From IMG/VR virus record IMGVR_UViG_3300029998_000099, positions 1-27,988 of that record: 27,988 nt of DNA; one strand, 5' to 3'. Shown here piece by piece: positions 4,881 through 26,416 of the stretch (its first letter is position 1; every line of letters starts with the position of its first letter). A program made the position numbers and the translations under genes. The notes below the pieces were generated by a model. The model made no database searches. It saw only the letters and a list, made by a program, of their open reading frames with translations, and was not told the origin of the DNA. Source of the stretch: a virus.

Positions 4881-5408
4881 CTATAATTGCATTTTTAGTT
4901 CATTTTGGTAAGCGTTATGAGCTTCTAATTCTGTTGGAAAACGACCAAGATATTTACGTTTTCTATTTGTAGTTATGTAGGATTCCCAATTTCCATCTCT
5001 TTTAAAGAAGCTAACGCCAGTAAATTCTGAAGAGTATTTTTCTTTGTTCTTCTTGAAGCATATAGAATTATTTTCTCTCGATGTTACAACATGTAGATTC
5101 GATAATCTGTTATTGGTTTTATCCCCATCTATATGGTCGATTACTAATGTGTTTCCGTTTATTGTATGACCTAAAAATGCTATGGCAACTAACTGATGAA
5201 CTGACATAGTTCTTGCCGTTCCATTCTTTTTTATACTAAATATCCTATACCCAGACCTATTTGCAGACTTTAGAATACGGCTATTTACCTTTCTCATACA
5301 AAATCCATTAAGAGCCAATCTATCAACGCTCCTTACTCTTCCTAAATTGCTGACTTGGTAATAACCCTCATATTCAGGCACATCCTTCCAAATCTCTATT
5401 TCTTCCAT
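4881..5408 (-). CDS. NUMOD4-HNH-AP2 homing-type endonuclease
   Basis: 175 residues in three modules. NUMOD4 is at about 6-35 (IWKDVPEYEGYYQVSNLGRV). The HNH fold is at about 69-115, with His71, Asp91-His92 and Asn100/Asn104. An AP2-like DNA-binding repeat is at about 128-170 (SEFTGVSFF...YLGRFPTELEAHNAYQNEL). Such free-standing endonucleases cut relatives that lack the gene and spread by repair. It stands between a remnant of the terS start and the intact terS, behind a structured leader and its own promoter-like box. No intron is needed to explain it. Confidence 0.9.
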   Translation of the reverse strand: MEEIEIWKDVPEYEGYYQVSNLGRVRSVDRLALNGFCMRKVNSRILKSANRSGYRIFSIKKNGTARTMSVHQLVAIAFLGHTINGNTLVIDHIDGDKTNNRLSNLHVVTSRENNSICFKKNKEKYSSEFTGVSFFKRDGNWESYITTNRKRKYLGRFPTELEAHNAYQNELKMQL

Positions 5409-5507: not shown

Positions 5508-5515
5508 CAAATATG
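5508..5515 (-). promoter_or_regulatory. -7-like box before leader copy 1
   Basis: CATATTTG on the minus strand is one base off TAnnTTTG. It ends 4 nt before P1 of the leader, close to the spacing in the other three copies, so the RNA would begin almost at P1. Confidence 0.5.
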
Positions 5516-7116: not shown

Positions 7117-7359
7117 TTAATTTGTAATTGCCAAATCTTTAATCGCCATAGTATTATACAACTCTTTAAATTGCTTAGTATTCAATTTTGTCGGCAATGA
7201 TTTGAGATAATTTTCTAATTGAGCCTGTAACGCATCTTTAGCAAATTCTAATGCAAGAAATGCTTCGCAAAATGTTTTATCCATTGGCGTCTCAAAAGAA
7301 GTTTTATTTTTCGAGCCATCATTGGTTACTGATATTTTTAGTTCTATGTCTATTAGCAT
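7117..7359 (-). CDS. hypothetical helical protein
   Basis: 80 residues from the ATG at 7359; the frame is open two codons further to a TTG that touches the neighbour's stop. The N-terminal part is beta-like (LIDIELKISVTND), the rest is a long amphipathic helix rich in Ala, Leu and Lys (residues 28-70). It is the second gene of the leftward early unit. I do not recognise it. Confidence 0.6.
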   Translation of the reverse strand: MLIDIELKISVTNDGSKNKTSFETPMDKTFCEAFLALEFAKDALQAQLENYLKSLPTKLNTKQFKELYNTMAIKDLAITN

Positions 7360-7361
7360 AA

Positions 7362-7565
7362 TCAATAAAACTTAGAAGATGATACTTCGATGCGCTTTTC
7401 TTTTATCAAACAAACTACATCTCCTTTTTCAAATCCAACTGAAATGTCTTTTTCTGTTTCAGTACCATAAATATGACCCACCAATTTTCCTAATGTTTTA
7501 TTCCTTTTAGAATTTGCAACATAATAATCAAGTTTTCCATCTTGATAAATAAAGAATTTTTTCAT
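7362..7565 (-). CDS. hypothetical protein, first gene of the leftward unit
   Basis: 67 residues from the ATG at 7565; a GTG four codons earlier (7577) is the alternative start. The pattern of short beta strands (KFFIYQDGKLDYYV, VGFEKGDVVCLIKEKRIEV) suggests a small barrel or SH3-like fold. It is about 50 bp downstream of a clear TATCTTTG box and overlaps the next gene's start region. Confidence 0.6.
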   Translation of the reverse strand: MKKFFIYQDGKLDYYVANSKRNKTLGKLVGHIYGTETEKDISVGFEKGDVVCLIKEKRIEVSSSKFY

Positions 7566-10576: not shown

Positions 10577-10584
10577 TATCTTTG
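10577..10584 (+). promoter_or_regulatory. -7 box TATCTTTG before leader copy 2
   Basis: Perfect TAnnTTTG, 6 nt before the first base of P1 of the leader. A -33 element is not clear (TTTA at 10558 is too close). Confidence 0.65.
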
Positions 10585-10590
10585 TATCAA

Positions 10591-10676
10591 ATTACTGTCT
10601 CACATAGTAATTAACCCTTTAAAAGCCCTTTTTGATTTAATTCGCAGTGAGACACGGATTATTTTGATTAGGGCTT
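10591..10676 (+). ncRNA. kissing-loop leader RNA, copy 2
   Basis: P1 ATTAC/GTAAT (10591-10595, 10607-10611), with loop A = TGTCTCAC (10596-10603). P2 AAGCCCT/AGGGCTT (10623-10629, 10670-10676). P3 AATTCG/CGGATT (10639-10644, 10655-10660), with A' = GTGAGACA (10647-10654), perfectly complementary to A. The start codon of the NUMOD4 gene is 15 nt downstream. A and A' change together against the other copies. Confidence 0.8.
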
Positions 10677-10691
10677 AATTTATATATTCTT

Positions 10692-11531
10692 ATGAAAAAA
10701 CAAAAAATACAAGAAAATTGGCGTACTATCCCAGATTACAATGGTTATTTGTTAAGTGATTTAGGACGTGTTAGGACAATAGAAGGCGTATTTATAGAGA
10801 CTTATAACGGGTTTGTCATGCTCGAATTAGAACAGTACTCAATTGCTGATTTAGTACAAAAAACATTCGTAAAAGAAAAGCCAGCAAATGCTGGTCATAA
10901 CGATATTTTAAACGGCTCATTTACGCTACGTTTCAAACATTATGTACTAACACCAACCTCAACACCTGATTTGTCTTCTGATGGTCTTAAAATGTGGTTT
11001 ACTGACTATGGATTTGTGTGCGTCGCGCCTCAAAGAAGTTTTCCGGTTGGTAATTGTAGATTTATATTCCCTTATGCAGTAACAGGGGATAGGGCGTATT
11101 TGTGCCCATTTGAGGAAATAACGGAAGGATCATATAGAATGCCTCGTAATTCGGGGACTGTTCAAATTTCGACCAACAAACGACCTGTACCGCTTCGGCA
11201 GGCAATAGCAATTATTTACAAAGAGTTCAATAAAGCGGTTAAGGATCATTCTCGTATTACTCCCGATACTAAATTACTAAAAAGCTATGCTTCTAACGCT
11301 GTTTTAAGTACTATAGGGAGATTAACTCCCGTATGTACTCACAATGATACTGTTTATATTATTTATGTCGATTACAAAAGCCTACGTGCTGAATACAGGG
11401 AATTAATTTCAAAGCAGGACGTTTTTAAAATATATGAGTTCGTTTCCGTACAGTCAAATTTACTGTGGGAAAAATCATTTGGCTTTACCAAGGAATCATT
11501 CTTAAAATTGGTAGAAACTGCTGATAAATAA
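10692..11531 (+). CDS. NUMOD4-containing protein without an HNH domain
   Basis: 279 residues. The N-terminus (about 6-32) has WRTIPDYNGYLLSDLGRVRTIEG, a clear NUMOD4 module as found at the start of homing endonucleases. The rest shows no His-Asp-His-Asn pattern of an HNH fold and no AP2 repeat. It has a beta-rich middle and a helical C-terminus. It may be a DNA-binding protein that lost or never had the nuclease. It is the only gene after leader copy 2 and is followed by the candidate origin. Confidence 0.7.
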   Translation: MKKQKIQENWRTIPDYNGYLLSDLGRVRTIEGVFIETYNGFVMLELEQYSIADLVQKTFVKEKPANAGHNDILNGSFTLRFKHYVLTPTSTPDLSSDGLKMWFTDYGFVCVAPQRSFPVGNCRFIFPYAVTGDRAYLCPFEEITEGSYRMPRNSGTVQISTNKRPVPLRQAIAIIYKEFNKAVKDHSRITPDTKLLKSYASNAVLSTIGRLTPVCTHNDTVYIIYVDYKSLRAEYRELISKQDVFKIYEFVSVQSNLLWEKSFGFTKESFLKLVETADK

Positions 11532-11694: not shown

Positions 11695-11739
11695 ATTACA
11701 ACATTTTGCCTCTCTTATCTTTTATTAACTCTACTCTTT

Positions 11740-11835
11740 AATTACTATCTAATATAATAAATAATATAAATTTTATATAGTATATATATTTATAGTATAT
11801 ATTATTATTTATAGTTAAGTATTTGATTTAGAGTA
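11740..11835. other. very AT-rich tract, candidate unwinding element
   Basis: About 95 bp composed almost only of A and T, with alternating TATA runs. It lies between the long inverted repeat and the iteron cluster. AT-rich tracts beside iterons are the usual melting sites of replication origins. I see no coding frame in the whole gap from 11532 to 12351. Confidence 0.4.
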
Positions 11836-12041
11836 TAGTTAATAAATATAGAATGCAGTTACTATAATGTAATTTAACTTATTTTAAGGATAGTTGTTAA
11901 TGAAATATAATTATTCCACTAACTATCAAATTACCAAATCATTACAACTAAAATCTAAAGTATAATAAAAGCTAACTAATTGATATTCATCAATGTTAAT
12001 TGAATTAACCTTTAAGTGCCGTATATTGCCAATAACCAACT

Positions 12042-12287
12042 AACTTGATCAATCTTACATTCATTTGATTATCCTTACTAAATCATACTTGAATAACAAA
12101 TATCATTAATCAAGTATATTAATAAGTGTTTACGGGATTTACTCTGAAATCTTTAAAATACATTAAATCGTAATAGGTAAGAATAATCAAAACAACTATA
12201 TCTATAATCAAGTTTTGCCATATAACTAATCAAGTTTATTTAAGTATAATCAAAATAACTTGATTGTTTTAATTATTATTAACTTGA
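12042..12287. repeat. iteron cluster, AATCAAGTT in both directions
   Basis: Seven full or near-full copies: AACTTGAT 12042-12049, ACTTGA 12087-12092, AATCAAGT 12108-12115, AATCAAGTT 12206-12214 and 12228-12236, AACTTGATT 12257-12265, AACTTGA 12281-12287. Four within 85 bp lie just upstream of the promoter at 12317. They could be binding sites for a replication initiator or for a repressor of the following operon. In an AT-rich sequence some copies may occur by chance, but not seven of this word. Confidence 0.6.
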
Positions 12288-12316
12288 ATGGTCTTTATCA
12301 ATAATCAAATAAGCAT

Positions 12317-12324
12317 TATCTTTG
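12317..12324 (+). promoter_or_regulatory. -7 box TATCTTTG for the 12.3-16.6 kb operon
   Basis: Perfect TAnnTTTG followed by C, 27 bp before the ATG at 12352. CTTTA at about 12293-12297 has the right distance for a -33 element. The iteron copies end 30 bp upstream. Confidence 0.65.
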
Positions 12325-12351
12325 CCATTATTAATTTAAAAACGTAACAAA

Positions 12352-12735
12352 ATGAGTAACGAAACAAATCATGGCGGTAAAAGGGAAGGTGCAGGACAAA
12401 AGCCAAAAGAACCACGCAAAACACTGCATAGAAATATACCTATAAGTCAGTATGATAGAATGGCAGAATCAATCGATGCCTTCTTAGAAAAATATCGAAA
12501 AAAGGAAATTGAAAACAGAGAGGCTATACATCCTGCCAGAAAAAAGAATTACGATCAGGAAATGCTTAAAAAAATAATGGATGATGGTTGGTCAGTAAAA
12601 ACATCTACAACGTCCTATTTCGCCTCTAAAAGTGCGGATGAGATTGTACAAGGGGAGACTATTTGTGATTTGTTTGAAGCGATATATGGGGCAAGGGAAT
12701 ATAACAAGTATTTGAAACAAATTAAAAGGCACTAA
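12352..12735 (+). CDS. GGKREGAGQKP-type protein with a C-terminal DGW module
   Basis: 127 residues. The N-terminal HGGKREGAGQKPKEPRKTLH (7-26) matches the short basic GGxRxGAGRP-type motif common in phage and plasmid DNA-binding proteins. The middle is helical. Residues 76-113 (MDDGWSVKT...SYFASK...CDLFEAIYG) resemble the ends of the next protein and of the 51-residue protein at 16253. It is the first gene after the iterons, so a link to replication or to control of that region is possible. Confidence 0.6.
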   Translation: MSNETNHGGKREGAGQKPKEPRKTLHRNIPISQYDRMAESIDAFLEKYRKKEIENREAIHPARKKNYDQEMLKKIMDDGWSVKTSTTSYFASKSADEIVQGETICDLFEAIYGAREYNKYLKQIKRH

Positions 12736-17705: not shown

Positions 17706-17713
17706 TATCTTTG
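17706..17713 (+). promoter_or_regulatory. -7 box TATCTTTG before the HNH gene at 17743
   Basis: Perfect TAnnTTTG, 29 bp before the ATG. Unlike three other NUMOD4 genes here, no kissing-loop leader follows; the gap is only 29 bp. Confidence 0.6.
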
Positions 17714-17742: not shown

Positions 17743-18297
17743 ATGAGGACAAGAAATTTAAAAGGCGGAGTATTATGGCAAAGATGGAAATTTATACCAG
17801 ATTATGAAGGGTATTATCGGTGTAGTTCTTTAGGCAGGGTTAGGAGCGTTGGCCGAGTAATTATAAGGTCGAATGGAGCTTCGCAAATAATACATGATCG
17901 AATTCTAAGCGGATGGGTGTCGACTGGTTATCCGATGGTTACTTTATGTATTGGAGGCACCCATAAGGCAATGCACATTCATCAATTAGTATCTATAACA
18001 TTTTTGGGACATAAGCAATGCAAGTTTGATTTTATCGTTGATCACAAAGACGGAAACAAGAAAAAGAACTACTTGTCGAATTTGCAGATTGTAACCAGTA
18101 GGGAAAATACTTCTGTTTGTTTTATTTCGGGAAGGGAAAACTATATGTCTCAATTCGTTGGTGTAACATGGGACAAAAGTAGAGATAAATGGATGGCTCA
18201 TATTAGAATAGGAAAATCAAGGAAAACAATTGGTAGATTCCTTACCGAAATAGAAGCCTCTAACGCATATCAAAATGAACTTTTAAAAATAAAATAA
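17743..18297 (+). CDS. NUMOD4-HNH-AP2 endonuclease
   Basis: 184 residues. NUMOD4 is at about 12-38 (WQRWKFIPDYEGYYRCSSLG). The HNH fold is at about 78-122, with His80, Asp100-His101, Asn109 and Asn113. AP2-like repeat at about 137-181. Shares a 34-bp identical stretch with the HNH gene at 19450, showing a recent common origin. Its stop overlaps the start of a broken gene. Confidence 0.88.
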   Translation: MRTRNLKGGVLWQRWKFIPDYEGYYRCSSLGRVRSVGRVIIRSNGASQIIHDRILSGWVSTGYPMVTLCIGGTHKAMHIHQLVSITFLGHKQCKFDFIVDHKDGNKKKNYLSNLQIVTSRENTSVCFISGRENYMSQFVGVTWDKSRDKWMAHIRIGKSRKTIGRFLTEIEASNAYQNELLKIK

Positions 18298-19334: not shown

Positions 19335-19342
19335 TATCTTTG
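19335..19342 (+). promoter_or_regulatory. -7 box TATCTTTG before leader copy 3
   Basis: Perfect TAnnTTTG, 9 nt before P1. TTCG at 19312-19315 has near-correct -33 spacing but one mismatch. Confidence 0.65.
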
Positions 19343-19351
19343 CATAATATA

Positions 19352-19438
19352 ATTACGGTCTGACACTTAGTAATTAACAATTTAAAGCCTCATTGCATGG
19401 ATATAGAAAGTCAGACCTCTATTGAAATCTTTGGGGCT
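19352..19438 (+). ncRNA. kissing-loop leader RNA, copy 3
   Basis: P1 ATTAC/GTAAT (19352-19356, 19370-19374), with loop A = GGTCTGAC (19357-19364). P2 AGCCTC/GGGGCT (19386-19391, 19433-19438, one G-U). P3 ATAGA/TCTAT (19403-19407, 19418-19422), with A' = GTCAGACC (19410-19417), perfectly complementary to A. The HNH start codon is 11 nt after P2. TCTTTGGGGCT before it is shared with copy 4. Confidence 0.82.
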
Positions 19439-19449
19439 ATTTTATTATT

Positions 19450-20217
19450 ATGAAACGAAACTTAGTAAAAGGTTATTTGTGGCAAAGGTGGAAGGATATA
19501 CCAGATTATGAAGGGTATTATCGGTGTAGTAGCTTAGGGAATGTTAAAAGCTTAAATAGAACTATAATTAGAAGCGACCTAAGGATAAGTAATATAAAAG
19601 AAAAAATACTTAAGCCAGCACTCACTAAAAAAGGGTATCTCATGGTCGTATTATGTGTCAATAGTAAAAATGTATCTCTTCAAATACAACAGTTAGTCGC
19701 AATTACCTTTCTTGGTCATATTAGCTGTGGAAACAAAGTAATAGTAGATCATAAAAATGGAAACAAGGTAAAGAATTATGTATCTAATCTTCAAACAGTA
19801 ACAAGCAGAGAAAATAATACAGTTTGTTTTAGAAAAAATAATGGAAAATACTCTTCTCAATATGTTGGTGTGTCATGGAATAACGGTCTTAATAAGTGGA
19901 TGTCTCAAATTTACGTAAACGGGAAACATAAATATCTTGGCTTATTTGATTCGGAACTTGAAGCTTCGGAATCCTATCAAAAAGCATTAGAGCACGTTAA
20001 GATTGGATGCCCTGAAAGTTATTTGGAATCAATATCCCATAAATCTTCATCTACATACGTAGGGGTTTCTTGGTATAGAAAATTAAACAAATGGAGATCA
20101 GCTATACGTATTGATGGTAAAAAGAAACATCTTGGATACTTTTATTCAGAATCTGAGGCATCATCTAAATATCAAAATGAATTATTAAAATTAAATCAAT
20201 TAAAATTAAACCAATAA
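19450..20217 (+). CDS. NUMOD4-HNH endonuclease with two AP2 repeats
   Basis: 255 residues. NUMOD4 is at about 11-37. The HNH fold is at about 78-122, with Asp100-His101, Asn109 and Asn113. The first His of the usual vHqLV is Gln80 (QIQQLVAITF), unlike the two HNH relatives in this window, so activity may be altered. Two AP2-like repeats follow at about 135-180 and 198-245. Its stop overlaps the ATPase start (TAATGG), so it is coupled to that gene. Confidence 0.88.
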   Translation: MKRNLVKGYLWQRWKDIPDYEGYYRCSSLGNVKSLNRTIIRSDLRISNIKEKILKPALTKKGYLMVVLCVNSKNVSLQIQQLVAITFLGHISCGNKVIVDHKNGNKVKNYVSNLQTVTSRENNTVCFRKNNGKYSSQYVGVSWNNGLNKWMSQIYVNGKHKYLGLFDSELEASESYQKALEHVKIGCPESYLESISHKSSSTYVGVSWYRKLNKWRSAIRIDGKKKHLGYFYSESEASSKYQNELLKLNQLKLNQ

Positions 20218-22445: not shown

Positions 22446-22477
22446 TTTGCATATAAATAAACTATGCAATATCTTTG
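22446..22477 (+). promoter_or_regulatory. promoter of leader copy 4, TTTG and TATCTTTG
   Basis: TTTG at 22446-22449 and TATCTTTG at 22470-22477 are 20 bp apart, the best complete promoter in the window. P1 of the leader begins 9 nt later, so the RNA probably starts within a few bases of P1. Confidence 0.75.
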
Positions 22478-22486
22478 CAAATATAA

Positions 22487-22574
22487 TTGCAGGTTCGACA
22501 ATACATGCAACTAACAAAATAAGCCCCTCTGTATGGAGATAAGATGTCGAACCCTTATCAAAGTCTTTGGGGCT
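22487..22574 (+). ncRNA. kissing-loop leader RNA, copy 4
   Basis: P1 TTGCA/TGCAA (22487-22491, 22506-22510), with loop A = GGTTCGAC (22492-22499). P2 AGCCCC/GGGGCT (22522-22527, 22569-22574). P3 GATAAG/CTTATC (22538-22543, 22554-22559), with A' = GTCGAACC (22546-22553), perfectly complementary to A. The next start codon is 30 nt downstream and is not an HNH gene but the head of the recombination operon. Confidence 0.85.
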
Positions 22575-22604: not shown

Positions 22605-23135
22605 ATGAGCAATCGAATTACAAAGTCAGAAGCTACACAAGTAGCAAAATTAATGGTGAATGATACCATCGACAAAAAACGTGTAGCGTTAAAAGAGAAA
22701 ATGTCGGCATTAATTCTGCCTGTCGTTTTATCTTCAATCCCAAATGAAGTAAACGAAACGTTTATCAAATTTCCAAACTATTTTCAAACAGCCAAACAAG
22801 TTAATGCAGTTTTAAATGGCGGTGGGTCTGAAAACGTTGAATTATCTGTCAGATTCCCTTCAACAAACGAATGGTGTCCGGCAATTGAAACACCAAAAGA
22901 AATTTATTCAGAGATTTTGAAATTAAGCAATCAAAGATCAAAGTTGCGTGAAAAGTCAGATCAGATAAAAAATAATATTTACGAAACACTTGTTTCACTC
23001 GCTACATATAAAAAGATTAAAGACCAATTCCCAGAAGCGTATAAATATATACCTATTGAATGGTTATCAGAGTCTTTTACTACTCTCGCATTACCAATTG
23101 AAGAATTGACCAAGGAACTTGAAAAATATAAATAG
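22605..23135 (+). CDS. hypothetical protein, first gene of the recombination operon
   Basis: 176 residues, mostly helical. MSNRITKSEATQVAKLMV at the start resembles the opening of the Nmad5-type (nucleotide modification associated) proteins, but I am not sure. FPSTNEWCPAIETP (about 83-96) and SLATYKKIKDQFPEAYKYIP (about 134-153) look conserved. It is the first gene after the best promoter and leader of the window. Confidence 0.6.
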   Translation: MSNRITKSEATQVAKLMVNDTIDKKRVALKEKMSALILPVVLSSIPNEVNETFIKFPNYFQTAKQVNAVLNGGGSENVELSVRFPSTNEWCPAIETPKEIYSEILKLSNQRSKLREKSDQIKNNIYETLVSLATYKKIKDQFPEAYKYIPIEWLSESFTTLALPIEELTKELEKYK

Positions 23136-26242: not shown

Positions 26243-26416
26243 ATGGCTAAGAATAGTTTAGATGTCACTTATTGCAAAGACTGCCCAAACGGTGGAGAAA
26301 TAAAAAACTTTCTCGTTAAATGCAAGGTGGATGGCAGTTGGAATCATAGTATTGTTAATTGTAGAAAAATAGCCGATGATAACTCTAAGACCGTATCAAC
26401 AAGAAATCGAAAATAA
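26243..26416 (+). CDS. 57-residue Cys-rich protein overlapping the helicase
   Basis: Residues CKDCPNG, VKCKVD and NCRK give four Cys in zinc-finger spacing. The 3' part overlaps the helicase start by 41 bp in another frame. The Cys pattern argues that it is coding in spite of the overlap. Confidence 0.6.
   Translation: MAKNSLDVTYCKDCPNGGEIKNFLVKCKVDGSWNHSIVNCRKIADDNSKTVSTRNRK

Follow-up and report, generated by a model that had tools for sequence, protein, structure and literature searches.

Kissing-loop leader RNAs, probable control elements of replication and DNA-cutting genes in Bacteroidota phages

The window analyzed here, which is the whole 27,988-nt stretch of viral DNA, encodes proteins that include an SPP1-type portal, a YqaJ recombinase, and a DEAD/ResIII helicase (Pfam). 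Four of its genes are headed by leaders of a common plan, in which a TAnnTTTG promoter is followed by a hairpin P1 with loop A, a linker, a helix P2 around a hairpin P3 with loop A′, and a start codon. The original prediction, made by reading the sequence, had placed this plan at four positions (minus strand, 5515–5421; plus strand, 10577–10676, 19335–19438, and 22470–22574) and had claimed that loop A is complementary to loop A′ in each; all of these elements were located there, and the complementarity was seen in all 4 copies. The features, identified from the sequence (leader RNAs also by descriptor search, with cmsearch bit scores; genes by Pfam), are as follows:

5508–5515, minus strand: promoter −7 box of copy 1, CATATTTG (consensus TANNTTTG; PMC6847099)
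5421–5503, minus strand: leader RNA of copy 1, from P1 to P2 (44 bits)
5503–5486 and 5472–5467/5426–5421, minus strand: P1 and P2 of copy 1
5497–5491 and 5449–5443, minus strand: loop A, TTGCTG(C), and loop A′, GCAGCAA, of copy 1
4881–5408, minus strand: gene behind copy 1, NUMOD4-HNH-AP2 homing endonuclease-type protein
10577–10584, plus strand: promoter −7 box of copy 2, TATCTTTG
10590–10676, plus strand: leader RNA of copy 2 (67.8 bits)
10590–10595/10607–10612, 10623–10629/10670–10676, and 10639–10644/10655–10660, plus strand: P1, P2, and P3 of copy 2
10596–10603 and 10647–10654, plus strand: loop A, TGTCTCAC, and loop A′, GTGAGACA, of copy 2
10692–11531, plus strand: gene behind copy 2, N-terminal NUMOD4 motif only
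19335–19342, plus strand: promoter −7 box of copy 3, TATCTTTG
about 19350–19438, plus strand: leader RNA of copy 3 (70.1 bits)
19351–19356/19370–19375, 19386–19392/19432–19438, and 19403–19407/19418–19422, plus strand: P1, P2, and P3 of copy 3
19357–19364 and 19410–19417, plus strand: loop A, GGTCTGAC, and loop A′, GTCAGACC, of copy 3
19450–20217, plus strand: gene behind copy 3, NUMOD4-HNH-AP2 protein
22470–22477, plus strand: promoter −7 box of copy 4, TATCTTTG
about 22487–22574, plus strand: leader RNA of copy 4 (52.4 bits; descriptor hit to 22584)
22487–22491/22506–22510, 22522–22527/22569–22574, and 22538–22543/22554–22559, plus strand: P1, P2, and P3 of copy 4
22492–22499 and 22546–22553, plus strand: loop A, GGTTCGAC, and loop A′, GTCGAACC, of copy 4
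22605–23135, plus strand: gene behind copy 4, Nmad5 (nucleotide-modification-associated) protein

All 4 copies were recovered by a search with a descriptor of this plan (P1 and its loop A; P2 around P3 and its loop A′), with A–A′ helices of 7–9 bp. The loop pairs are orthogonal within the window, the own partners matching over 7–8 bp and the crossed partners over 2–4 bp. In copy 1, P2 is followed by a T-run (ATTTTTTTTATT). The fifth HNH gene of the window (17743–18297) has a TATCTTTG box at 17706–17713 and no leader was found before it; its leader region is short and unstructured, which makes it a natural leaderless control. A guide-RNA reading (IscB/omega-RNA) was dropped, since the proteins belong to the NUMOD4/HNH/AP2 type and many leaders have no HNH gene.

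The bare topology is common by chance: single strands of the dinucleotide-shuffled window gave best scores of 59–72, compared with 62–69 for the 4 copies, and the MFE z-scores of single copies ranged from −0.9 to −3.6. Because shuffled sequences match these scores, the 4 copies read by eye are no proof, and homologues were needed. When the promoter box and the start codon were added to the descriptor, 27 real hits were obtained versus 2 shuffled hits (score ≥66, 1.42 Mb).

Orthologues of 2 replication genes (a DnaD-like helicase loader by phrog; DUF6291 with a weak Phg_2220_C) were fetched and their upstream regions read, which yielded the alignments A6 (13 type II leaders) and A7 (7 type I leaders). 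Every region of the DUF6291 set that contains a suitably spaced TAnnTTTG box has complementary loops (by eye, then parsed); L384, of the same set, has no clear P1. Covariation was counted on the unmodified sequences of A6 and A7, and the alignment A5 was left out of the counts because MAFFT had misaligned P1 between type I subgroups. In A6, 98.6% of cells are paired and double-sided changes occur in 22 of the 28 pairs (P1, 4/5; kiss, 6/8; P2, 8/11; P3, 4/4), with a covariation score of 0.760 versus 0.244 ± 0.024 for shuffled and at most 0.108 for slid alignments. In A7, 98.1% of cells are paired and the changes are double-sided in 15 of 23 pairs (P1, 4/4; P2, 7/10; P3, 2/3; kiss, 2/6, the other 4 being invariant), the score being 0.698 versus 0.259 shuffled. 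The covariation claimed from the 4 copies, for which homologues without covarying pairs had been named as the decisive counter-observation, thus stands, pairing being kept through double-sided changes in both sets.

Single comparisons follow the same pattern. The close relatives hemulen and mymlan carry different kiss pairs (GTGAGACG/CGTCTCAC and GTGGAACG/CGTTCCAC, respectively), P1 of copy 4 (TTGCA/TGCAA) is TTGCC/GGCAA in its orthologue in L004, an A-T to C-G change, and the orthologue of the copy 2 gene in L174 (62% identical) is preceded by an unrelated yet complementary pair, GTAGGCA/TGCCTAC. Across all leaders, 34 distinct A sequences were collected, each complementary to its own A′ over at least 6 bases, whereas swapped pairs reach 6 in 24%; many of these leaders had been picked by the kiss, so the orthologue and covariance-model sets are the cleaner evidence. 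Loop A is GC-rich (59%, compared with 33% in the leaders overall). P3 is flanked by AGTA and CGAA in type I and by TGAA/GGA in type II leaders, and the type I flanks have the letters of what we take, as a suggestion, to be a loop-E/sarcin-ricin bulged-G motif. On comparative grounds, we consider the leader structure well supported.

At least 11 cultured phages of Bacteroidota carry the element, as do dozens of contigs in IMG/VR. The cultured carriers with complementary loops are Polaribacter P12002L/S, Cellulophaga phi19:1 and phi10:1, Croceibacter P2559S, and Flavobacterium FCV-1, FCL-2, 11b, hemulen6-1, mymlan6-1, and tooticki6-1. A covariance model (R1) was built from 14 members with the kissing pairs left out; its seed, hand-padded with N and trimmed to stay gap-free, served for searching only. 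R1 matched 22 of 48 related records and, at E ≤ 1, 12 of 15 cultured phages; crAss001, B124-14, and 6H had no R1 match. In these 15 phages, the loop complementarity that R1 does not use was present in 9 of the 11 non-antisense hits at E < 0.04, and none of the hits above E 0.09 had a convincing kiss. Of 27 contigs chosen as leader-type, R1 recognized 25, compared with 0 of 10 control contigs (other phages with HNH genes). An R1 scan of 395 Bacteroidota genomes was empty; only about 9 candidates per genome were scored, which makes the scan uninformative on prophages. A blastn search with copy 4 against the phage collection returned nothing, a result to be expected when an RNA conserves little of its sequence. 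Downstream of the leaders, across the set, lie replication initiators, HNH endonucleases, and an Nmad5 gene.

Several variants were observed. An extra small hairpin precedes P1 in L174 (4881–5000) and lies in the P1–P2 linker in FCL-2 (L241). Phage phi10:1 (L233) keeps the leader with the box TATATTTA instead of TATATTTG. The P1–P2 linker is A-rich, with an ATATTA/ACATTATT core that recurs across subtypes (e.g., L336, L016, and L236) and is a candidate protein or triplex contact.

The position of the leader relative to its promoter bears on what the RNA may do. In Flavobacterium johnsoniae, the G of the −7 box lies at −5 (PMC6847099), and the gap between box and P1 is 2–9 nt (median, 5) in the leaders, so that P1 would start at about +1. 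The fold had been proposed to lie at the 5′ end of phage mRNAs, and this geometry supports the placement: an mRNA made from the TAnnTTTG promoter would have its first nucleotide at P1 or only a few nucleotides away, and would begin with a hairpin. From the end of P2 to the start codon there are 9–47 nt. A −33 TTG element was looked for upstream of the box and gave no clear positional signal.

Promoter and leader also appear to travel as a unit. Type I (GAGCAG, AAGCAG) and type II (CATCCGAC) leaders alternate before proteins that are 91%–100% identical to one query, as seen in L336, L338, L339, and L340/341, and the helicase gene of the close relative L004 is preceded by a leader (7288–7369; GGTTCAAC), whereas its window orthologue at 26376 has none. 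A similar behavior is known from promoter early stem-loops (PeSLs), which as far as we know are simple stem-loops, reportedly called composite promoter–terminator motifs in the title of Comeau 2014; the PeSL cassettes of T4-like phages are also said to be the subject of Arbiol 2010. To our knowledge, PeSLs have been described with neither a kissing loop nor a three-part pairing that covaries, nor with a copy of a loop beside the start codon. In T4-like phages, the PeSL cassette is a modular unit of promoter and stem-loop associated with gene shuffling (cited in PMC4503421). The Bacteroidota leaders, which are likewise exchanged modularly between orthologous genes, resemble PeSLs in behavior and not in anatomy, and they use the Bacteroidota TAnnTTTG box (PMC6847099) in other hosts instead of a T4-like early promoter.

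P2 resembles a terminator hairpin. At least 6 T occur within the 8 nt after P2 in 86% of leaders compared with 16% of leaderless promoters (Mann–Whitney p = 1e-15; 3e-11 after dereplication by A), and a terminator score modelled on the classical formula is above 0 in 79% of leaders versus 3% of shuffles. The U-run is weak in window copies 2 and 4, and the U-rich stretch could serve ribosome binding instead. Alternative antiterminator pairing is usual in RNA-based attenuators and is not required in protein-controlled ones. No conventional antiterminator was found: the P2 5′ arm matched the sequence upstream of it no better in the own leader than in swapped leaders (3.6 versus 3.9 nt), and a purely RNA-based terminator switch is therefore not evident.

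One subclass, the type I leaders, carries a third element at the start codon. In 21 contigs, a sequence identical to A, here termed A2, ends 0–5 nt before the ATG. It occurs in 8 variants (GAGCAG, AAGCAG, AGGCAG, TTGCAG, TCGCAG, GTGCAG, GGGCAG, and GTACAG), the second position takes all 4 bases, and A, A′, and A2 change together. The A2–A′ and A–A′ helices of this subclass both comprise 6–8 bp; in A7, A′ and A2 are paired in 100% of cells, with 2 double-changed pairs, and in the type I set no match of 6 nt to the A of another leader occurs. Because A2 repeats A, A′ is able to pair with A or with A2 and not with both. A type II leader (L376/L382) likewise has CTTCGAC before its ATG. The 4 window copies lack A2, and in leaders without A2, these copies included, A′ shows no complementarity to the start region. 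In the genomes examined, 41 A2 sites lie behind their own leader, and no site in trans was found besides 1 of doubtful meaning in L373. In L346 (603–2510), a leader with A = GTGCAG heads an operon, and the matching A2 (GTGCAGTAAA-ATG) lies 1.8 kb downstream, past 4 genes and before the fifth; an insertion of genes may have separated A2 from the leader, or else A′ works over a distance. This arrangement does not fit a purely local switch, and a trans or long-range role is possible.

We propose that the cassette is probably an on/off control element, previously undescribed, for viral replication and DNA-cutting genes. Its more specific form, for which we see about an even chance on the present sequence comparisons, is a modular promoter–leader cassette acting as an attenuator, with an added start-codon switch in the A2 subclass. 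Some transcripts would end at the P2 U-run as an RNA of about 90–100 nt. In a type I mRNA that is read through, an A′–A2 helix would cover the start region (off), whereas capture of A′ by the earlier-made P1 loop would leave the start open (on); A–A′, being the first helix to form, is taken to be the open state. The trigger may be a phage or host protein at the conserved P2–P3 internal loop or the linker, loss of the 5′ hairpin, or an RNA in trans. More tentatively, since we would sooner bet against it than for it, the leader may be a self-contained switch in which A′, carried on a terminator hairpin, chooses A or A2, and which is passed between phages as a promoter cassette to gate replication initiators and homing endonucleases. 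The transcription start, termination, switching, and direction of regulation are all inferred.

A known counterpart of such a start-codon switch is found in the IncI-alpha plasmid ColIb-P9, where a pseudoknot upstream of the start of the replication initiator gene repZ controls translation through competing pairing (PMC8383071). The repZ pseudoknot is an activator, with which an antisense RNA competes in trans (PMC8383071), and the sign proposed above could likewise be reversed. In the leaders, by contrast, the competitor would be a second loop in cis and the loop is carried on a terminator-like stem; no sequence relation to repZ was seen, and complementarity of the repZ kind beside the start codon exists in the A2 subclass only and is absent in the window copies.

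Four other readings were weighed against the attenuator. The leader may stabilize mRNA, a blunt 5′-terminal hairpin locked by the kiss guarding against 5′-end-dependent decay and the U-run being incidental. This fits P1 beginning at about the predicted +1 (PMC6847099) and a structure far more conserved than its sequence, and yet we think it unlikely, because neither the strong U-run enrichment after P2 nor the covariation of A2 with A′ would be explained. A source of small RNA, by contrast, would make use of the terminator-like hairpin: termination at the P2 U-run would release an RNA of about 95 nt whose A′ pairs in trans with A2 of an mRNA, for instance in negative feedback on a replication initiator. 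The distant A2 of L346 and the precedent of plasmid copy control, the ColIb-P9 repZ pseudoknot with Inc RNA (PMC8383071), speak for it; however, nearly every A2 immediately follows the leader to which it belongs (41 own versus 1 doubtful other), A′ already has A as its partner in cis, and an A2 target is lacking in most leaders, which renders this reading improbable.

The putRNA of phage HK022 acts by processive antitermination through the zinc-binding domain of the RNA polymerase β′ subunit, and we know of no U-run in it. A nascent leader that likewise binds RNA polymerase, so that later terminators are read through, would suit a promoter-proximal RNA of about 100 nt or less with 2 hairpins that stands first in phage operons. 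The length of putRNA is about 70 nt, with 2 stem-loops, and putL lies just downstream of PL; it is a short structured RNA at or near a phage early promoter that acts in cis, features that the leader would share, but PMC9378689 mentions no kissing for it. Moreover, putRNA occurs as 2 copies of similar sequence in one phage, whereas the leaders are many diverged copies in many phages; the leader itself ends in a U-run and adjoins the gene, and A2 would be left unexplained, so that we hold this reading to be rather doubtful. The idea that the inverted repeats act as DNA, as a site for promoter-cassette recombination or for recognition by an HNH endonuclease, draws on how closely the elements are linked to HNH genes in the window and on the swapping of leader types before near-identical genes, but is very improbable given an orientation fixed relative to promoter and ATG, pairing that is kept as the sequence changes, a nearly constant loop geometry, retained G-U wobbles, and the many leaders with no HNH gene downstream.

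The attenuator cassette would belong to a known kind, the cis-acting leader RNA, with an architecture that is apparently new, not being known to us. The Guanidine-II riboswitch also has 2 kissing hairpins upstream of a gene, with short invariant loops and a ligand; the leader kiss, in contrast, comprises 6–9 bp and is free to vary in sequence, and thus no ligand pocket is indicated. We know of neither the leader architecture nor the three-part code elsewhere. At the gathering score, Rfam 15 gave only tRNA in the window and no family at 20 leader-bearing loci, which supports the absence of a named RNA family with this plan; a permissive Rfam 15 scan of copy 4 gave chance-level hits only, and no description of a kissing-loop leader was found in the open-licence literature. 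The original prediction therefore held for the kissing fold, the covariation, and the lack of a named family. It had left the function open between stability, translation control, and protein binding, and it had missed the U-run, the strong association with genes for HNH proteins and replication, the exchange of leaders as modules, and A2.

The leaders appear to represent a widespread class of regulatory RNA, outside Rfam, in phages of a major bacterial phylum. Evolutionary evidence supports their loop–loop interaction and, in the A2 subclass, also a third partner that competes beside the start codon. Little is known of how phages of Bacteroidota control their genes, and the cultured phages phi19:1, FCL-2, hemulen, and P2559S offer a testable handle. 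If true, the choice made by A′ would define a regulatory RNA class that is new, its code being purely one of base pairing, almost sequence-free, and orthogonal between the copies of one genome; a kissing code that varies so freely would also help in the design of orthogonal RNA regulators for Bacteroidota.

Repeats resembling AACTTGATT cluster on both strands at 12042–12289 of the window, inside a long intergenic stretch (11728–12352). Their total in the window is not above chance and the clustering alone is striking; the cluster is possibly an origin or a regulatory site.
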